Shown: piece by piece, positions 24,260 through 29,755 of the stretch
Layout: every line of letters starts with the position of its first letter
How positions within the stretch are numbered: position 1 is the stretch's first letter
NCBI GenBank assembly: GCA_009839485.1
Contig: VXPQ01000032.1
Span: 216,982-280,981 of the forward strand
From: Bacteroidetes bacterium SB0662_bin_6
GTDB taxonomy: Bacteria; Bacteroidota; Rhodothermia; Rhodothermales; VXPQ01
Direction of reading: 5' to 3'
DNA: 64,000 nucleotides
The notes under the pieces: model-generated
What the model saw: the letters and a program-made list of their open reading frames with translations, nothing else
What the model was told of the DNA's origin: nothing
Databases searched by the model: none
Translations under genes and position numbers: made by a program

Positions 24260-27200
24260 CTATGCAGCCCGAGACGCGCGTTCGACGATTCTGACAGCTT
24301 CGTCGAATTGCACGCCAACGATACGGGAAACGCCGGGTTCTTGCATGGTGACGCCGTACAGTCGATCCGCCGCCTCCATCGTTAACTTGTTGTGTGTAAC
24401 GAGAACGAATTGCGTGTGTTCTGCAAACCGCCGGATCATGCGCATGAAACGCTGAACGTTCTTATCGTCGAGGGGAGCATCCACCTCATCGAGGATACAG
24501 AAGGGACTCGGCTTGACAAGGTAAATGCCAAACAGGAGTGCGATCGCTGTAAGCGCCTTCTCGCCTCCGGAAAGCAGCGAGGTGGTTGACGACGTTTTAC
24601 CCCCGGGACGGGCCCGGATGCGGATGGGCGTTTCGAGCGGATGCGCCGGGTCTTCCAGCACCAGATCGGCAACCGCCTCTTCCCCGAACAGATCCTGAAA
24701 CGTTTGCCGGAAATGGTGGCGGATCCCTTCGAACGTTTTCAGAAACCTCTCCGATGCGGTCGCATTGATCTCGTCGATCGTTTCGAGCAGCGTCTTTTCG
24801 GCTTCTTCGAGATCCTGCTGTTGCTGCGTCAGGAATTCGAGCCGTTTCTTTTCCTCTTCCCAGGTTTCAAGCGCAAGTTCGTTGACGCTTCCCATGGCCT
24901 GGATGCGGAGACGCAATGCGCTCACTTCCTCCCGGGCAGCCTCTTCCTCAAAGCCTTCCGGCGCCAGGATAGACGCCTCTGCCACTGCTTCCGGCAGCGA
25001 CACCGCAAAATCTACAAAAACCTGATCGACCAGCGCCTCCGTGCGGGTGCGGATTTCGGTAAGCCGCAGTTCACGCTGGTGCTCCTGATGTATCAACTGC
25101 TCGCGGCGATCCCGTAATCCCTGCAATGCACCTTCGAGGGTACCCATATCCTTCCGGATAGCCTGCAGATCGCCTTCCGAACGGTTCACCGCCTCCTGCA
25201 GTACGGCTTTCTGTTCTTCCATGCCGGGCCACTCGGTCGCCAGTTCTTCCAATCGACTGCCGGCCTGTTGCAGTTTCCGATCCAGTTCATCGATGCGGAG
25301 GGCGCGTGCTTTCGTACGGTCATGCAGTTCCTGAAGACGCCCGCGCGCGCGATCGAGGTCTCGCCGCAAGTTCTCGTACCGGTTGCGCGCCTTGAGCGCA
25401 TCAAGACTCGCGTCGTTATATACCCCTGCCGCCACGCGGCTTTCGGTTTCCGCAGCCTGGAATGCCGTTTCCGCTTCGACAAGCCGCGATTGGACTCCGT
25501 TCAGATTTCCGGCAGCTTGTGCAAGATCCTCGCTGAGGCGCTTGCTCTCGCGGCCTGTCTCTTCGAGAAATGCCTGCGCCTCTTCGAATTTGTTCGTAAG
25601 TGCTTCCTGCCGGTGTTCGGCCGCTTCCAGATTAAACACGGCCTGCGTAGCTTCCCGCTCCGCCTTTGCAAGATCCCGCTCGGCTTCGGCCAGGCGTTCG
25701 CGGCATGCTTCGCAGGAAATGGCGGCCATTTCAGTACGGTGCTTATCGATGGTTCCTTCTGCGGCCTCGATATCGCTTCGAATGGCCCGCAAACGGCGGC
25801 GCGTGGTTTCCAGTTGTTCCCGGCGCTCAAGACGTCCCGACGCCAACGTGTCGCCTTCCTCCTTGCTGCCCGCGTGCAGAACCCCTTGCGCATCCACCCA
25901 TTCGCCGGTGCGTGCAAAGACTCGCACACCACGGGCAGCCCGGGAAGCGAGTCGTTCCGCCTCATCGAGCGTGTCGACGACGTACGCATCGTGCAGCAGC
26001 AACCGAACAAGCCGGGCGTACTTGCCGGAATCGCCTTTCCGGTCAGCAATGCGTACGCATTCCTCCAGCGATGCAGCCTGCTCGGGACGGGGACTTTCCG
26101 ACGCCATCGTATCCGGTATCCGGTCCAGCACAATGAATGTGGCTCGGCCCTGGCCGTTGCGGCGCAATTGTTCGATCGCCGCCCGGGCTTCGTGGTCGGA
26201 ATCCACGACAATGCATCCGGCGAAAGGACCCAGCGCAGCGGCAAGGGCCACGCGATCCGCATCCTTGCATGCAAACAGGTCGGCCACCGTGTTCAGGTCT
26301 CCGCCCGACCATTCCGAGGTGGCCAGGTACTGTACGGCCCCCGAGCAATCCTCGTAGGACGTAAGCATGCTTTCCAGCAATCTGGCCGATGCCTCAAGCG
26401 CTTCCCGCTCACGTTCGAGTCGGTGCAACCGGTCGAGGGCTTCGTCAAGACATTCCCGGATATGCGCCTCCTCCCTTGCCGCCTGTTCAAAAGCAATCCG
26501 GGTCTGGTCGACAGCAGCCGCTGCCCGCGACCTCAACGTTTCCGTATCGGCTGCAAGCGCACGCAGCTCGGCAAGCGAGGCCTCCGCCTCGCACCTTTCC
26601 GTTTCCGCATTCGCCATATTCTTCTGCACCAGATCCCGCTGGCCGACTATCTTGTCGAGTTGGCGGCGTTGCGAGGCATGTTCTTCCTCGTGCGCACGTT
26701 CCTCTGCACGAAGCTGCAGCAATGCCTGTTGTTTTTCCTCGCTGGCGGCTCGGCGCGTGTCGCGCCCGCGCTCCGCAGCAGTGAGCCGTTTCTCCGCCTC
26801 GTGCAGGGCGGGCTCGGCTTCCTTCAACGCTTTTTCCACCTCTGCAATTTCCTGCGTCATGTCCACGCGGCGCATTGCAGCGGTTTCCTGCTCTTCCTGC
26901 ATGCGTTGCCGTTCGTCGTGCGCGGACTCCAACCGCCCTTCCGCAAGACGTCGCTCCGTTTCCAGCTCGCGTCGCTTGTCGATGTATCCATACAGGTCGG
27001 CGCGTTCCGCATCAAGGCGCTTCTCGCAGGCAAGGAGCTTTTCACGGAGCGCGTTCAGCGCATCCGCCTGATCGGTTTCCTGTTTGGTTGCATGCGTGGT
27101 TTGCTCGTTCAGACCCGTCGTTTCATTACTGAGCTTGCTCTGTTCCTCGGCCAGGCGCGCATATTCGATGCCGGCGAGCGCCAGTTCAAGCTCACGGAGG

Positions 27201-27862
27201 CGGTTCCGGGCCTTCTTGTAGCGCTCCGCTTGCCCCGCCTGCCGCTTGAGGCTCCGAACCTGTTTGGCTATTTCGTCCGTAAGGTCCCGAATGCGCTCGA
27301 GGTCTTTCCGGGTCGCGTCCAGTCTTCCGAGCGTTTGCCGCCGCCGCACCTTGTATTTCGTGATGCCAGCGGCTTCCTCGAACAAACGCCGGCGGTCATC
27401 GGTGTTTTCGGACAGAATCTCATCGATCATCTTCAGCTCGATGACCGAATACGCACCGGCGCCCATACCGGTGTCCATGAAAAGATCCATAATGTCCCGA
27501 AGACGACACGTTACGCCGTTCATGGCATACTCGGAATCGCCGGATCGGTAGAGGCGGCGCCCCAGTTGCACCTCATCGTACCGGGCAGGAAGGATATCCC
27601 GGTTGTTTTCGATCGTCAGAAGCACTTCGGACATGCCCAGCGGCTTGCGCTTCGACGCCCCGTTGAAAATTACATTCTCCATCTTGTCGGAACGGAGAAT
27701 GCGGGTTCGCTGCTCGCCAATCACCCAACGCACGGCGTCCACAATATTCGACTTGCCACATCCGTTAGGACCTACGATGGCCGTAATCCCCGCATCGAAA
27801 TGCAACACGGTACGATCCGCAAAGCTTTTGAAGCCATGCAATTCGAGTTTGCTCAGATACAT
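24260..27862 (-). CDS. smc: Chromosome segregation ATPase SMC
   Basis: A 1200-residue SMC protein. The N-terminal head has the Walker A motif GPNGCGKSN (about residues 32-40) after MYLSKLELHGFKSFADRTVL; the C-terminal head has the signature LLSGGEKALTAIALLF and Walker B FCILDEVDAPLDD. Between them are two long coiled coils (about 165-500 and 670-1000) and a hinge (about 515-650) with the expected Gly-rich segments. It organises and separates chromosomes with ScpA/ScpB, which are not encoded here. Upstream is a 540-base gap with several inverted repeats. Confidence 0.98.
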   Translation of the reverse strand: MYLSKLELHGFKSFADRTVLHFDAGITAIVGPNGCGKSNIVDAVRWVIGEQRTRILRSDKMENVIFNGASKRKPLGMSEVLLTIENNRDILPARYDEVQLGRRLYRSGDSEYAMNGVTCRLRDIMDLFMDTGMGAGAYSVIELKMIDEILSENTDDRRRLFEEAAGITKYKVRRRQTLGRLDATRKDLERIRDLTDEIAKQVRSLKRQAGQAERYKKARNRLRELELALAGIEYARLAEEQSKLSNETTGLNEQTTHATKQETDQADALNALREKLLACEKRLDAERADLYGYIDKRRELETERRLAEGRLESAHDERQRMQEEQETAAMRRVDMTQEIAEVEKALKEAEPALHEAEKRLTAAERGRDTRRAASEEKQQALLQLRAEERAHEEEHASQRRQLDKIVGQRDLVQKNMANAETERCEAEASLAELRALAADTETLRSRAAAAVDQTRIAFEQAAREEAHIRECLDEALDRLHRLEREREALEASARLLESMLTSYEDCSGAVQYLATSEWSGGDLNTVADLFACKDADRVALAAALGPFAGCIVVDSDHEARAAIEQLRRNGQGRATFIVLDRIPDTMASESPRPEQAASLEECVRIADRKGDSGKYARLVRLLLHDAYVVDTLDEAERLASRAARGVRVFARTGEWVDAQGVLHAGSKEEGDTLASGRLERREQLETTRRRLRAIRSDIEAAEGTIDKHRTEMAAISCEACRERLAEAERDLAKAEREATQAVFNLEAAEHRQEALTNKFEEAQAFLEETGRESKRLSEDLAQAAGNLNGVQSRLVEAETAFQAAETESRVAAGVYNDASLDALKARNRYENLRRDLDRARGRLQELHDRTKARALRIDELDRKLQQAGSRLEELATEWPGMEEQKAVLQEAVNRSEGDLQAIRKDMGTLEGALQGLRDRREQLIHQEHQRELRLTEIRTRTEALVDQVFVDFAVSLPEAVAEASILAPEGFEEEAAREEVSALRLRIQAMGSVNELALETWEEEKKRLEFLTQQQQDLEEAEKTLLETIDEINATASERFLKTFEGIRHHFRQTFQDLFGEEAVADLVLEDPAHPLETPIRIRARPGGKTSSTTSLLSGGEKALTAIALLFGIYLVKPSPFCILDEVDAPLDDKNVQRFMRMIRRFAEHTQFVLVTHNKLTMEAADRLYGVTMQEPGVSRIVGVQFDEAVRIVERASRAA

Positions 27863-27961
27863 ATCAGCAGCGCAATCTGCAAAGACGGATCAGGAAAAAA
27901 GAACCCGGACAGGGACGCCCATACAGTCCGCGTCATGTCACGAGCACATCCATCGAACAAT

Positions 27962-27983
27962 AAAACGGTTCTAAAACCGTTTT
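27962..27983. promoter_or_regulatory. AT-rich perfect inverted repeat upstream of smc
   Basis: AAAACGGTT (27962-27970) and AACCGTTTT (27975-27983) form a perfect nine-base inverted repeat around CTAA, 100 bases upstream of the smc start. It could act as a protein-binding site or a weak hairpin. No gene on either strand ends here, so a terminator role is unlikely. Confidence 0.4.
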
Positions 27984-28010
27984 GCAAGTGCTATAGGCCT
28001 TTTACGCACG

Positions 28011-28090
28011 ATTGTGCAAAAATAAGCCGCTCCACCTGAAAAAAAGAAAATGTCCGGAATAAATCATCGTATAATCCGTTATTGCACAAT
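28011..28090. promoter_or_regulatory. Spaced inverted repeat around a TATAAT box
   Basis: ATTGTGCAA (28011-28019) recurs in reverse as TTGCACAAT (28082-28090), a perfect nine-base match 62 bases apart. Between them, at 28070-28075, is TATAAT on the + strand, without a clear -35 box. The layout could be two operator half-sites around a promoter for transcription towards the hairpin-rich region that follows. Confidence 0.35.
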
Positions 28091-28178
28091 GTATATCTCA
28101 CAGTGTACACCATGCACGATCCGGGCCGTTATCTCCGGAACGATATGCGGCCGGACACAACGGGTATCGCTGAAGAAA

Positions 28179-28399
28179 GGGTGGACGCAACGTAACCTGC
28201 ACAACCATCCTGCCGTAGGAAATGTATGTGGCAGGGAATTTGCTTGAAATGAAGCTGTGCACGTAACCCGCCGGCGAAACATGGGCGGCTGTGCACGAAA
28301 ACACACCCTTCGGTCCTACCTCCGCCGATGGTGTGTGCCACGGAGGAGGGCCTTGCATACGGACTGGAGCCCCGACATGCCTGGCCCTCCTTTCTTTTT
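28179..28399 (+). ncRNA. Candidate structured RNA ending in an intrinsic terminator
   Basis: The region has no credible gene but a row of hairpins on the + strand: GGGTGG (28179-28184) with CCATCC (28205-28210, one G-U pair); CCTGCC (28209-28214) with GGCAGG (28230-28235), which overlaps and so competes with the first; GTGCAC (28257-28262) with GTGCAC (28291-28296), enclosing CCGCC/GGCGG; ACACACC (28301-28307) with GGTGTGT (28330-28336), enclosing TCGG/CCGA; and AGGAGGGCC (28344-28352) with GGCCCTCCT (28383-28391), enclosing GCAT/ATGC and followed by a T-rich tail to 28399. The T tail is only on the + side, so transcription should run that way. It does not match tmRNA, RNase P RNA or SRP RNA by eye. 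The 5' end is unknown; a TATAAT lies at 28070. Confidence 0.4.
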
Positions 28400-28405
28400 A
28401 GCGCA

Positions 28406-29755
28406 TCAGAGTGTCCAGGGCTCGCGCATGGGTCGCCCGAGCATCTCGTTGGCCGAGGCGTCGTCGAGCACCACTTCCCGGTCCGGATCCCATCTCAGAT
28501 CACGGCCCAACAGCATGGAGATATTGCCGAGGTGGGCCACGGTAATCGAGCGGTGCGCCTCCTCGATCGGCGCCACCGGTTCGGTGCCGGTGATCACGCT
28601 GTCGATGAAGTCCTGGCGATGATTGTCGCTATGGTAAAGGCGGGTATCCTGATCGCTCAGTATGGTGCTCCAGATGGCCGGATCGGACACCTCGTGGCCC
28701 CCGCGAGACACGAATATCCAGCCGTCGTCTCCTTCGAAACGAACGCCTCTCTGCTCGTCGCTGGTGACGACCATGGTCACCCCATTGGCGTATTCGGCCT
28801 CGAAGTAAAAGTCGGTGGCGGTATTCCACAAATCATTCTCCGGGAAGGTCCCCCTGGCATTGCGGATGGCTATCGGGCCGGTCCGGGCCGTTCCCATGCC
28901 CCATTGCGCGATGTCGGGATGATGCCCGCCCCAGTCCGTCACCTGCCCGCCGGAGTAATCAAAGATCCAGCGGAAATTCACATGGCATCGGGCAGGGCTG
29001 TATTCCGCTTCCGGAGCGGGGCCAAGCCACAAGTCATAATTGAAGCCTTCGGGCACCGGCTCGGGCTCTTTCCGATCACCGGTTTGGCCGAAGTCCGGCT
29101 GCCCCGGCGGGAGGCCGCATCGTACCGTGCGCAATGTGCCGATCCGCCCGTTCAGCACGAGCTCGCAGGCATGACGAAAACGCTCGCTGGAGCGCTGCTG
29201 GCTACCGGTCTGGAACACCACCCCTGCTTCCTTGACGGCATCGCTCATGGCCCGCCCTTCCTTGACGGTAAGCGAGAGCGGTTTCTCCCCGTAAATGTGC
29301 TTGCCGGCGCGGGCGGCGGCGATAACCGGAATGGCGTGCCAGTGATCCGGCGTGGAAATCACCACCGCATCGATATCGTCACGGGCCAGCAATTCGCGAA
29401 AATCTTCATACCCTTCACAGGGGGAGTATTTCCCGGAGCGTATCTGCTTGCTGTGGGAAAAATTCACCAACTGCTGTGCGGGTTCCCTGCCCGCGTAGCC
29501 GCCGTTCCAGTACCCGTAGCTCGCCCGGTTCACGTCGCAGACGCCCGCAATCTGCACCTGGTCATTCTCAAGGAATTGTCTCAAATGCCCGGTCCCCATA
29601 TTGCCCGTACCGATGAATCCGAGCGTAATGCGATCACTGGGAGCCGGCCGGCCGGCACGTCCGAGGGCGGACGCCGGAACAATGCTGGGCAGAGCAAGCC
29701 CTCCGGCGAGGAGCGCGCCGGTCTTCAAAAAGTCGCGTCGATTTCTGCTGATCAT
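28406..29755 (-). CDS. Tat-exported Gfo/Idh/MocA family oxidoreductase
   Basis: A 449-residue protein with a twin-arginine signal (SRNRRDFLKTGALLAGGLAL), Rossmann motif LGFIGTGNMGTGHL, the turn AGVCDVNRAS and the EKP motif (HIYGEKPLSLTVKEGRAM), followed by a GSQQRSSERFRHACELVLNG block shared with the protein at 56.3-57.8 kb. The C-terminal domain has WGGHHPDIAQWGMG, the His-rich segment of the exported subfamily. It probably oxidises or modifies a sugar or polyol in the periplasm. The neighbouring gene upstream is a GNAT on the same strand, 143 bases away. The exact substrate cannot be inferred. Confidence 0.92.
   Translation of the reverse strand: MISRNRRDFLKTGALLAGGLALPSIVPASALGRAGRPAPSDRITLGFIGTGNMGTGHLRQFLENDQVQIAGVCDVNRASYGYWNGGYAGREPAQQLVNFSHSKQIRSGKYSPCEGYEDFRELLARDDIDAVVISTPDHWHAIPVIAAARAGKHIYGEKPLSLTVKEGRAMSDAVKEAGVVFQTGSQQRSSERFRHACELVLNGRIGTLRTVRCGLPPGQPDFGQTGDRKEPEPVPEGFNYDLWLGPAPEAEYSPARCHVNFRWIFDYSGGQVTDWGGHHPDIAQWGMGTARTGPIAIRNARGTFPENDLWNTATDFYFEAEYANGVTMVVTSDEQRGVRFEGDDGWIFVSRGGHEVSDPAIWSTILSDQDTRLYHSDNHRQDFIDSVITGTEPVAPIEEAHRSITVAHLGNISMLLGRDLRWDPDREVVLDDASANEMLGRPMREPWTL

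Follow-up and report, generated by a model that had tools for sequence, protein, structure and literature searches.

A conserved and strongly folded element between smc and an oxidoreductase gene is a candidate small RNA gene confined to one genus of Rhodothermales

In the 2.9 Mb draft genome of Bacteroidetes bacterium SB0662_bin_6, the gap between smc and an oxidoreductase gene carries a conserved, structured element which favours the + strand, is present in single copy and is restricted to one genus. In our view the reading most consistent with these observations is that of a lineage-specific intergenic small RNA (sRNA) gene on the + strand, the product of which would regulate in trans. We hold this reading to be somewhat probable, and we infer the transcription of the RNA, its 5′ end and the steps of its action. 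Lineage-specific intergenic sRNAs are a common kind of object, and what is new here is the family. The RNA would be GC-rich, strongly folded and single copy, and it is constrained above the third codon positions of smc. The lineage has no detectable Hfq or CsrA and makes little use of Shine–Dalgarno sequences, which makes it a good test case for sRNA action.

Locus and coding potential

All positions refer to the window, the whole stretch of 64,000 nucleotides that was analysed. The smc gene (24260–27862, PF02463) and a gene for a GFO/IDH/MocA oxidoreductase (28406–29755) both lie on the - strand and enclose a gap of 543 bases (27863–28405). The original prediction had described this gap as lacking a plausible protein, and we agree, as no open reading frame overlapping it has a Pfam match. 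Of the + strand frames that overlap the gap, one alone has an ATG inside the conserved 3′ module of the element, at 28328. It was rejected as a coding sequence because, in the alignment of five genomes, most substitutions alter the amino acid and the ATG is absent from three of them; the substitutions in the module ignore reading frames. The element lies between genes and outside any protein gene, as an sRNA gene would. On the + strand there is no gene on either side of it for a terminator to serve, and the next feature downstream is antisense to the oxidoreductase, the stop codon of which is 7 bases beyond the T-rich tail of the element in the source genome.

In one relative (G004) an insertion of ∼53 bases with inverted ends (ACAGGATAC...GTATCCTGATCCTGT) separates the RNA terminator from the oxidoreductase (L002, about 1842–1896), and it resembles a small hairpin insertion. 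We also note that a near-identical coding stretch (SPTFYVPAEVDEDETYEYLLTV) is repeated in contigs of G000 (L062, L067, L087, L088 and L089), which suggests a family of large repetitive proteins.

Conservation and distribution

The element is found in five of the six genomes of the genus, in single copy and always between smc and the oxidoreductase. The sixth, an assembly of 670 contigs, is without the RNA, and this absence means little because smc is missing there too. The 3′ module (28297–28390) is 93.6–95.7% identical to that of three relatives and 88.3% identical to that of G003. In comparison with the more distant G001 and G002 its identity is 93.6–94.7%, whereas stretches 28021–28070 and 28085–28189 are only 44–48% identical (44–46% for the latter) and third codon positions in the two flanking genes 64–74% identical. 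Since the module stands far above both the remainder of the gap and the third codon positions, it is strongly constrained, and not as coding sequence; such conservation of sequence and structure beyond the neighbouring gap is what an sRNA gene would display.

A covariance model of the module was searched against 114 genomes of the order and 244 of the class. The module was found in five of the former, at high score, and in five of the latter, all of them in the one genus. Weak matches outside the genus were judged to be chance; that in G010 was rejected as apparently belonging to a protein gene, since its CTGGAGCCCCGACGGGCGG reads as WSPDGR and the frame continues HDLSPAWSPDGRHLVF. In 25 relatives from the order, the sequence upstream of smc contained no counterpart of the RNA, and the element, being single copy, forms no repeat family. 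The original prediction had proposed an alignment of the homologous gap in related Rhodothermota; as judged from these searches, the RNA is confined to one genus and is not general in that group.

Structure and strand

The consecutive + strand stem-loops of the original prediction are indeed present. Region 28179–28399 folds on this strand with an energy of -89.3 kcal/mol and a z score of -3.2, and none of 200 shuffled sequences folded as well. The signal for structure comes from the 3′ module; structure in the 5′ half is weak. For 28297–28399 the z score is -4.9 in the source genome and -4.7 to -6.4 across the five genomes, with 0 of 200 shuffles as good in any of them; for 28192–28296 folded alone it is -1.3 and for 28085–28190 it is 0.0.

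A variable stretch (28085–28191, + strand; 44–74% identity, z 0.0) comes ahead of the 5′ domain and would be transcribed only if the RNA starts near 28085. The 5′ domain itself (28192–28243, + strand) contains the invariant GTAACCTGC (28192–28200) and GGCAGG(G/A)AATTTGC (28230–28243), between which the sequence is variable. Pairing is possible as CCTGC:GCAGG and GTAA:TTGC, and these pairs never vary; the former, 28196–28200 with 28231–28235, is the invariant pairing of the domain in the five genomes. Two stems sharing 28205–28214 (GGGTGG:CCATCC and CCTGCC:GGCAGG) had been proposed to be mutually exclusive, as in a switch. They are complete in the source genome only, the four relatives keeping two or three of the six pairs of the first and three or four of the six of the second. 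We reject the switch as it was described, because these stems are not conserved and because the GGCAGG arm pairs instead with the invariant CCTGC at 28196. A failure of the stems to be conserved among relatives, which the original prediction had named as grounds for abandoning it, is thus seen for its first two stems and not for the 3′ module. In G001 and G002 the 5′ domain carries an insertion of 24–25 bases (L004, 1438–1530; L005, 1640–1729), and that of G001 forms an extra hairpin (TTTCCGTA...TACGGAAA) within the RNA.

Hairpin H2 (28257–28296, + strand) is formed by GTGCAC...GTGCAC and an inner stem. When the segment is folded alone it refolds in all five genomes despite sequence change, and three of its pairs are changed on both sides. 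Hairpin H3 (28301–28336, + strand) has 7 + 5 pairs and a nine-base loop (28315–28323), of which TACCTCC (28317–28323; UACCUCC in the RNA) is invariant; 100% of its cells in the alignment are paired, with one G–U change. The terminator-like hairpin (28342–28393, + strand), for which a nine-pair stem had been proposed, comprises 18 pairs (11 + 4 + 3) with two internal interruptions and has the apical loop ACTGGAGCC (28363–28371). Here too 100% of cells are paired, and the four variable pairs all stay paired on the + strand, as G–U. A simple terminator scanner omitted 28342–28399, the loop and internal loops being outside its limits. The T-rich tail TTTCTTTTT (28391–28399) follows this last hairpin on the + strand only, as had been claimed, and on the - strand the hairpin is not followed by a U tract. 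An intrinsic terminator at the 3′ end of the RNA strand is to be expected of an sRNA gene, and its tail is weaker in G001 and G002 (TATATTTATT / TTTATTTATT).

The - strand of 28179–28399 folds equally well (z -3.1). As the energies are alike, the strand was assigned from the U tail and the comparative G–U evidence, and not from energy. On the + strand all 150 pairing cells of the module are paired, compared with 137 of 150 on the - strand, where the remaining 13 are A–C mismatches; the structure came from a + strand fold, so this count somewhat favours the + strand, notably at the two outermost terminator pairs, but most pairs are Watson–Crick on either strand. The five variable pairs of the module all stay G–U or Watson–Crick on the + strand and break on the - strand. 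This evidence points to an RNA read on the + strand. Five related sequences offer scant covariation and, in the shuffle control, the best measures gave an unremarkable 14 to 33 of 500, so that the support which covariation lends to the predicted structure is modest.

Upstream motifs and the RNA start

A TATAAT box and a 9-base inverted repeat had been noted upstream, and both are present. TATAAT (28070–28075) opens the promoter-like or regulatory motif (T)ATAATCCGTTATTG (28070–28084, + strand), of which 28071–28084 is 100% identical in all five genomes. The inverted repeat, in the part of the gap next to smc (∼27962–27983), has fared less well: the only relative in which it is intact is G004, and it is imperfect in G003 and absent from G001 and G002. 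Neither a σ70 promoter at the consensus threshold nor a good -35 box was found in the gap. It is possible that ATAATCCGTTATTG is the -10 region of the RNA gene, in which case the RNA would start near 28085 and have a length of ∼315 nt; alternatively, it may start nearer 28180 (∼220 nt). It would end at ∼28399, at the intrinsic terminator.

The motif at 28071–28084 is almost a palindrome and might function on the - strand, on which it reads TGCAATAACGGATTATA and resembles TTGCAAAACGGTTTTAGA before smc. The similar - strand motifs TTGCAAAACGGTTTTA (27974–27990) and GTGCAATAACGGATTATA (28073–28086) lie ∼100 bases apart and occur nowhere else in the 64 kb; they may be a pair of operator or promoter sites serving smc or the RNA. 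The tmRNA genes of the genus have a conserved TTCTTTGCACA a few bases before their start (L026, L027 and L028), which we take to recall the TTTG-type promoter element of Bacteroidota, and GTTATTGCACA at 28078 is loosely similar to it.

Known RNA families

Over the 64 kb window Rfam returned two tRNA-Ser genes only. At the gathering threshold and at an E value of 10 nothing was found in the gap apart from a chance microRNA match, in agreement with the original prediction, in which the element was not recognizable as tmRNA, RNase P, SRP RNA or a common riboswitch. Neither tmRNA (RF00023) nor RNase P (RF00010) matches the element, and those of this genome are at G000:C38 and G000:C51, respectively. 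6S RNA (RF00013) gave no covariance match in the element even at an E value of 10. Among 11 genomes of the order none has a 6S RNA above the Rfam cut-off, and the sole match is a weak one of 19.3 bits (G003:C1:891155–891352, L007). A riboswitch or leader is not supported, as there is no controlled gene downstream on the + strand and no aptamer-like sequence that Rfam recognizes. Hfq-dependent sRNAs and CsrB/RsmZ-type RNAs were rejected, because an Hfq gene was found in none of the five genomes of the genus and a CsrA gene in none of the five. A literature search found no publication on small RNAs of Rhodothermales. The RNA matches no Rfam family and, on the basis of these comparisons, most probably represents a new one.

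Proposed mode of action

The conservation, the folding and the strand-specific pairs support a small RNA gene, which was one of the two roles originally suggested; the other, a leader-like RNA or switch, is unsupported because no + strand gene follows the terminator. In the mechanism that we propose, the conserved 3′ module would expose two loops, UACCUCC and ACUGGAGCC, and the exposed loops are conserved in the five-genome alignment. A loop would pair with a purine-rich stretch in a single mRNA or in a few of them, or would be held by an RNA-binding protein, and the contact would alter the translation or stability of the mRNA.

The UACCUCC loop of H3 looks like an anti-Shine–Dalgarno seed. 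Shine–Dalgarno enrichment is low in the window (4 of 27 ATG starts, some of them uncertain, against a background of 10%). As there is also no Hfq and no CsrA, the usual sRNA machinery is missing. In the five genomes the complement of the CCUCC loop was rarer than the reversed control or similar to it, and in a short-pattern scan it was carried by no orthologous start region. The pattern for the second loop, with one mismatch allowed, was commoner than the control in G000 and G001 and not in G003 and G004. For short patterns, then, neither loop has complements that are convincingly enriched or that fall in shared start regions.

Alternative explanations

Protein binding is the main rival to base pairing. 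An RNA with loops that bind protein and not mRNA, whether protein-binding or housekeeping in kind (a diverged RNA that binds RNA polymerase or the ribosome, for example), would fit the near-invariance of whole hairpins including their loops, the lack of clear genome enrichment of the loop complements and the 11 genomes of the order without a 6S RNA above the Rfam cut-off. We nevertheless regard it as unlikely: the shape differs from the single long hairpin with a central bubble of 6S RNA, tmRNA and RNase P are sited elsewhere and the restriction to one genus is unlike that of housekeeping RNAs. It is also quite improbable that the RNA is read on the - strand and acts in cis, whether as a structured 3′ UTR belonging to the oxidoreductase or as a long 5′ leader for smc. 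The module is separated from the smc start by ∼430 bases of which the sequence is poorly conserved, its variable pairs (five of five) break on the - strand and no - strand U tract lies past the hairpin, even though both flanking genes are on that strand with the element between them, its folding energy is equally good and TGCAATAACGGATTATA resembles sequence before smc.

The CCUCC loop of H3 might also form a pseudoknot with GGAGG at 28342–28346 which competes with the terminator, read-through giving an antisense RNA to the oxidoreductase. The loop is invariant, the arm has GGAGG or GAGGAGG in all five genomes, the 3′ arm has CCUCC and the oxidoreductase stop is close to the tail in the source genome. 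However, half of the loop–arm complementarity is expected because GGAGG is in any case required to pair with CCUCC of the 3′ arm, covariation does not separate loop–arm from arm–arm pairing and the extra ∼53 bases in G004 lie between the RNA end and the oxidoreductase, and we consider such a regulated terminator very unlikely. More doubtful still is a new RNA family in which the CCUCC/GGAGG pseudoknot controls termination and so chooses between a short sRNA and the oxidoreductase antisense; if true, a termination-controlling pseudoknot would operate in a bacterium that uses Shine–Dalgarno sequences little. Least probable of all is an element acting as DNA, such as a repeat or a binding site close to smc, or a chance set of hairpins. 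A DNA site would suit the near-palindromic conserved motif at 28071–28084 and the adjoining chromosome-organising gene, but a 94-base block with strand-specific, pair-respecting changes would be unexpected for it, as would a single copy with no repeat family, and against chance the folding beats all shuffles in every member.

Comparison with known systems

The trans-acting sRNA that we favour has features in common with several known systems. Hairpins ahead of a terminator and possible competing pairings recall riboswitches and attenuators, but no same-strand gene follows this RNA and the proposed switch stems are not conserved. It falls within the size range of 6S RNA (180–320 nt), but consists of separate hairpins in a row, with a terminator of its own, and is not a bubbled rod. 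As in CsrB and RsmZ there are several hairpins, and GGA occurs in some of the loops (UGGAG in that of the terminator), but the setting differs in that the five genomes have no CsrA gene.

The closest parallels are found in Bacteroides thetaiotaomicron, in which terminator-bearing intergenic sRNAs are common (PMC7366714). GibS, a largely unstructured RNA of ∼145 nt for which targets are mapped, carries a single-stranded seed at its 5′ end and binds translation initiation regions by direct pairing, and Bacteroides has no obvious Hfq (PMC7366714). The present candidate resembles it in being a free-standing intergenic gene with its own terminator and genus-level conservation, GibS itself coming from a relative within the phylum that lacks an obvious Hfq. 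Because GibS pairs directly under these circumstances, a pairing RNA is the most likely kind here. The candidate is set apart from the description of GibS by its GC-rich sequence and strongly folded 3′ end.
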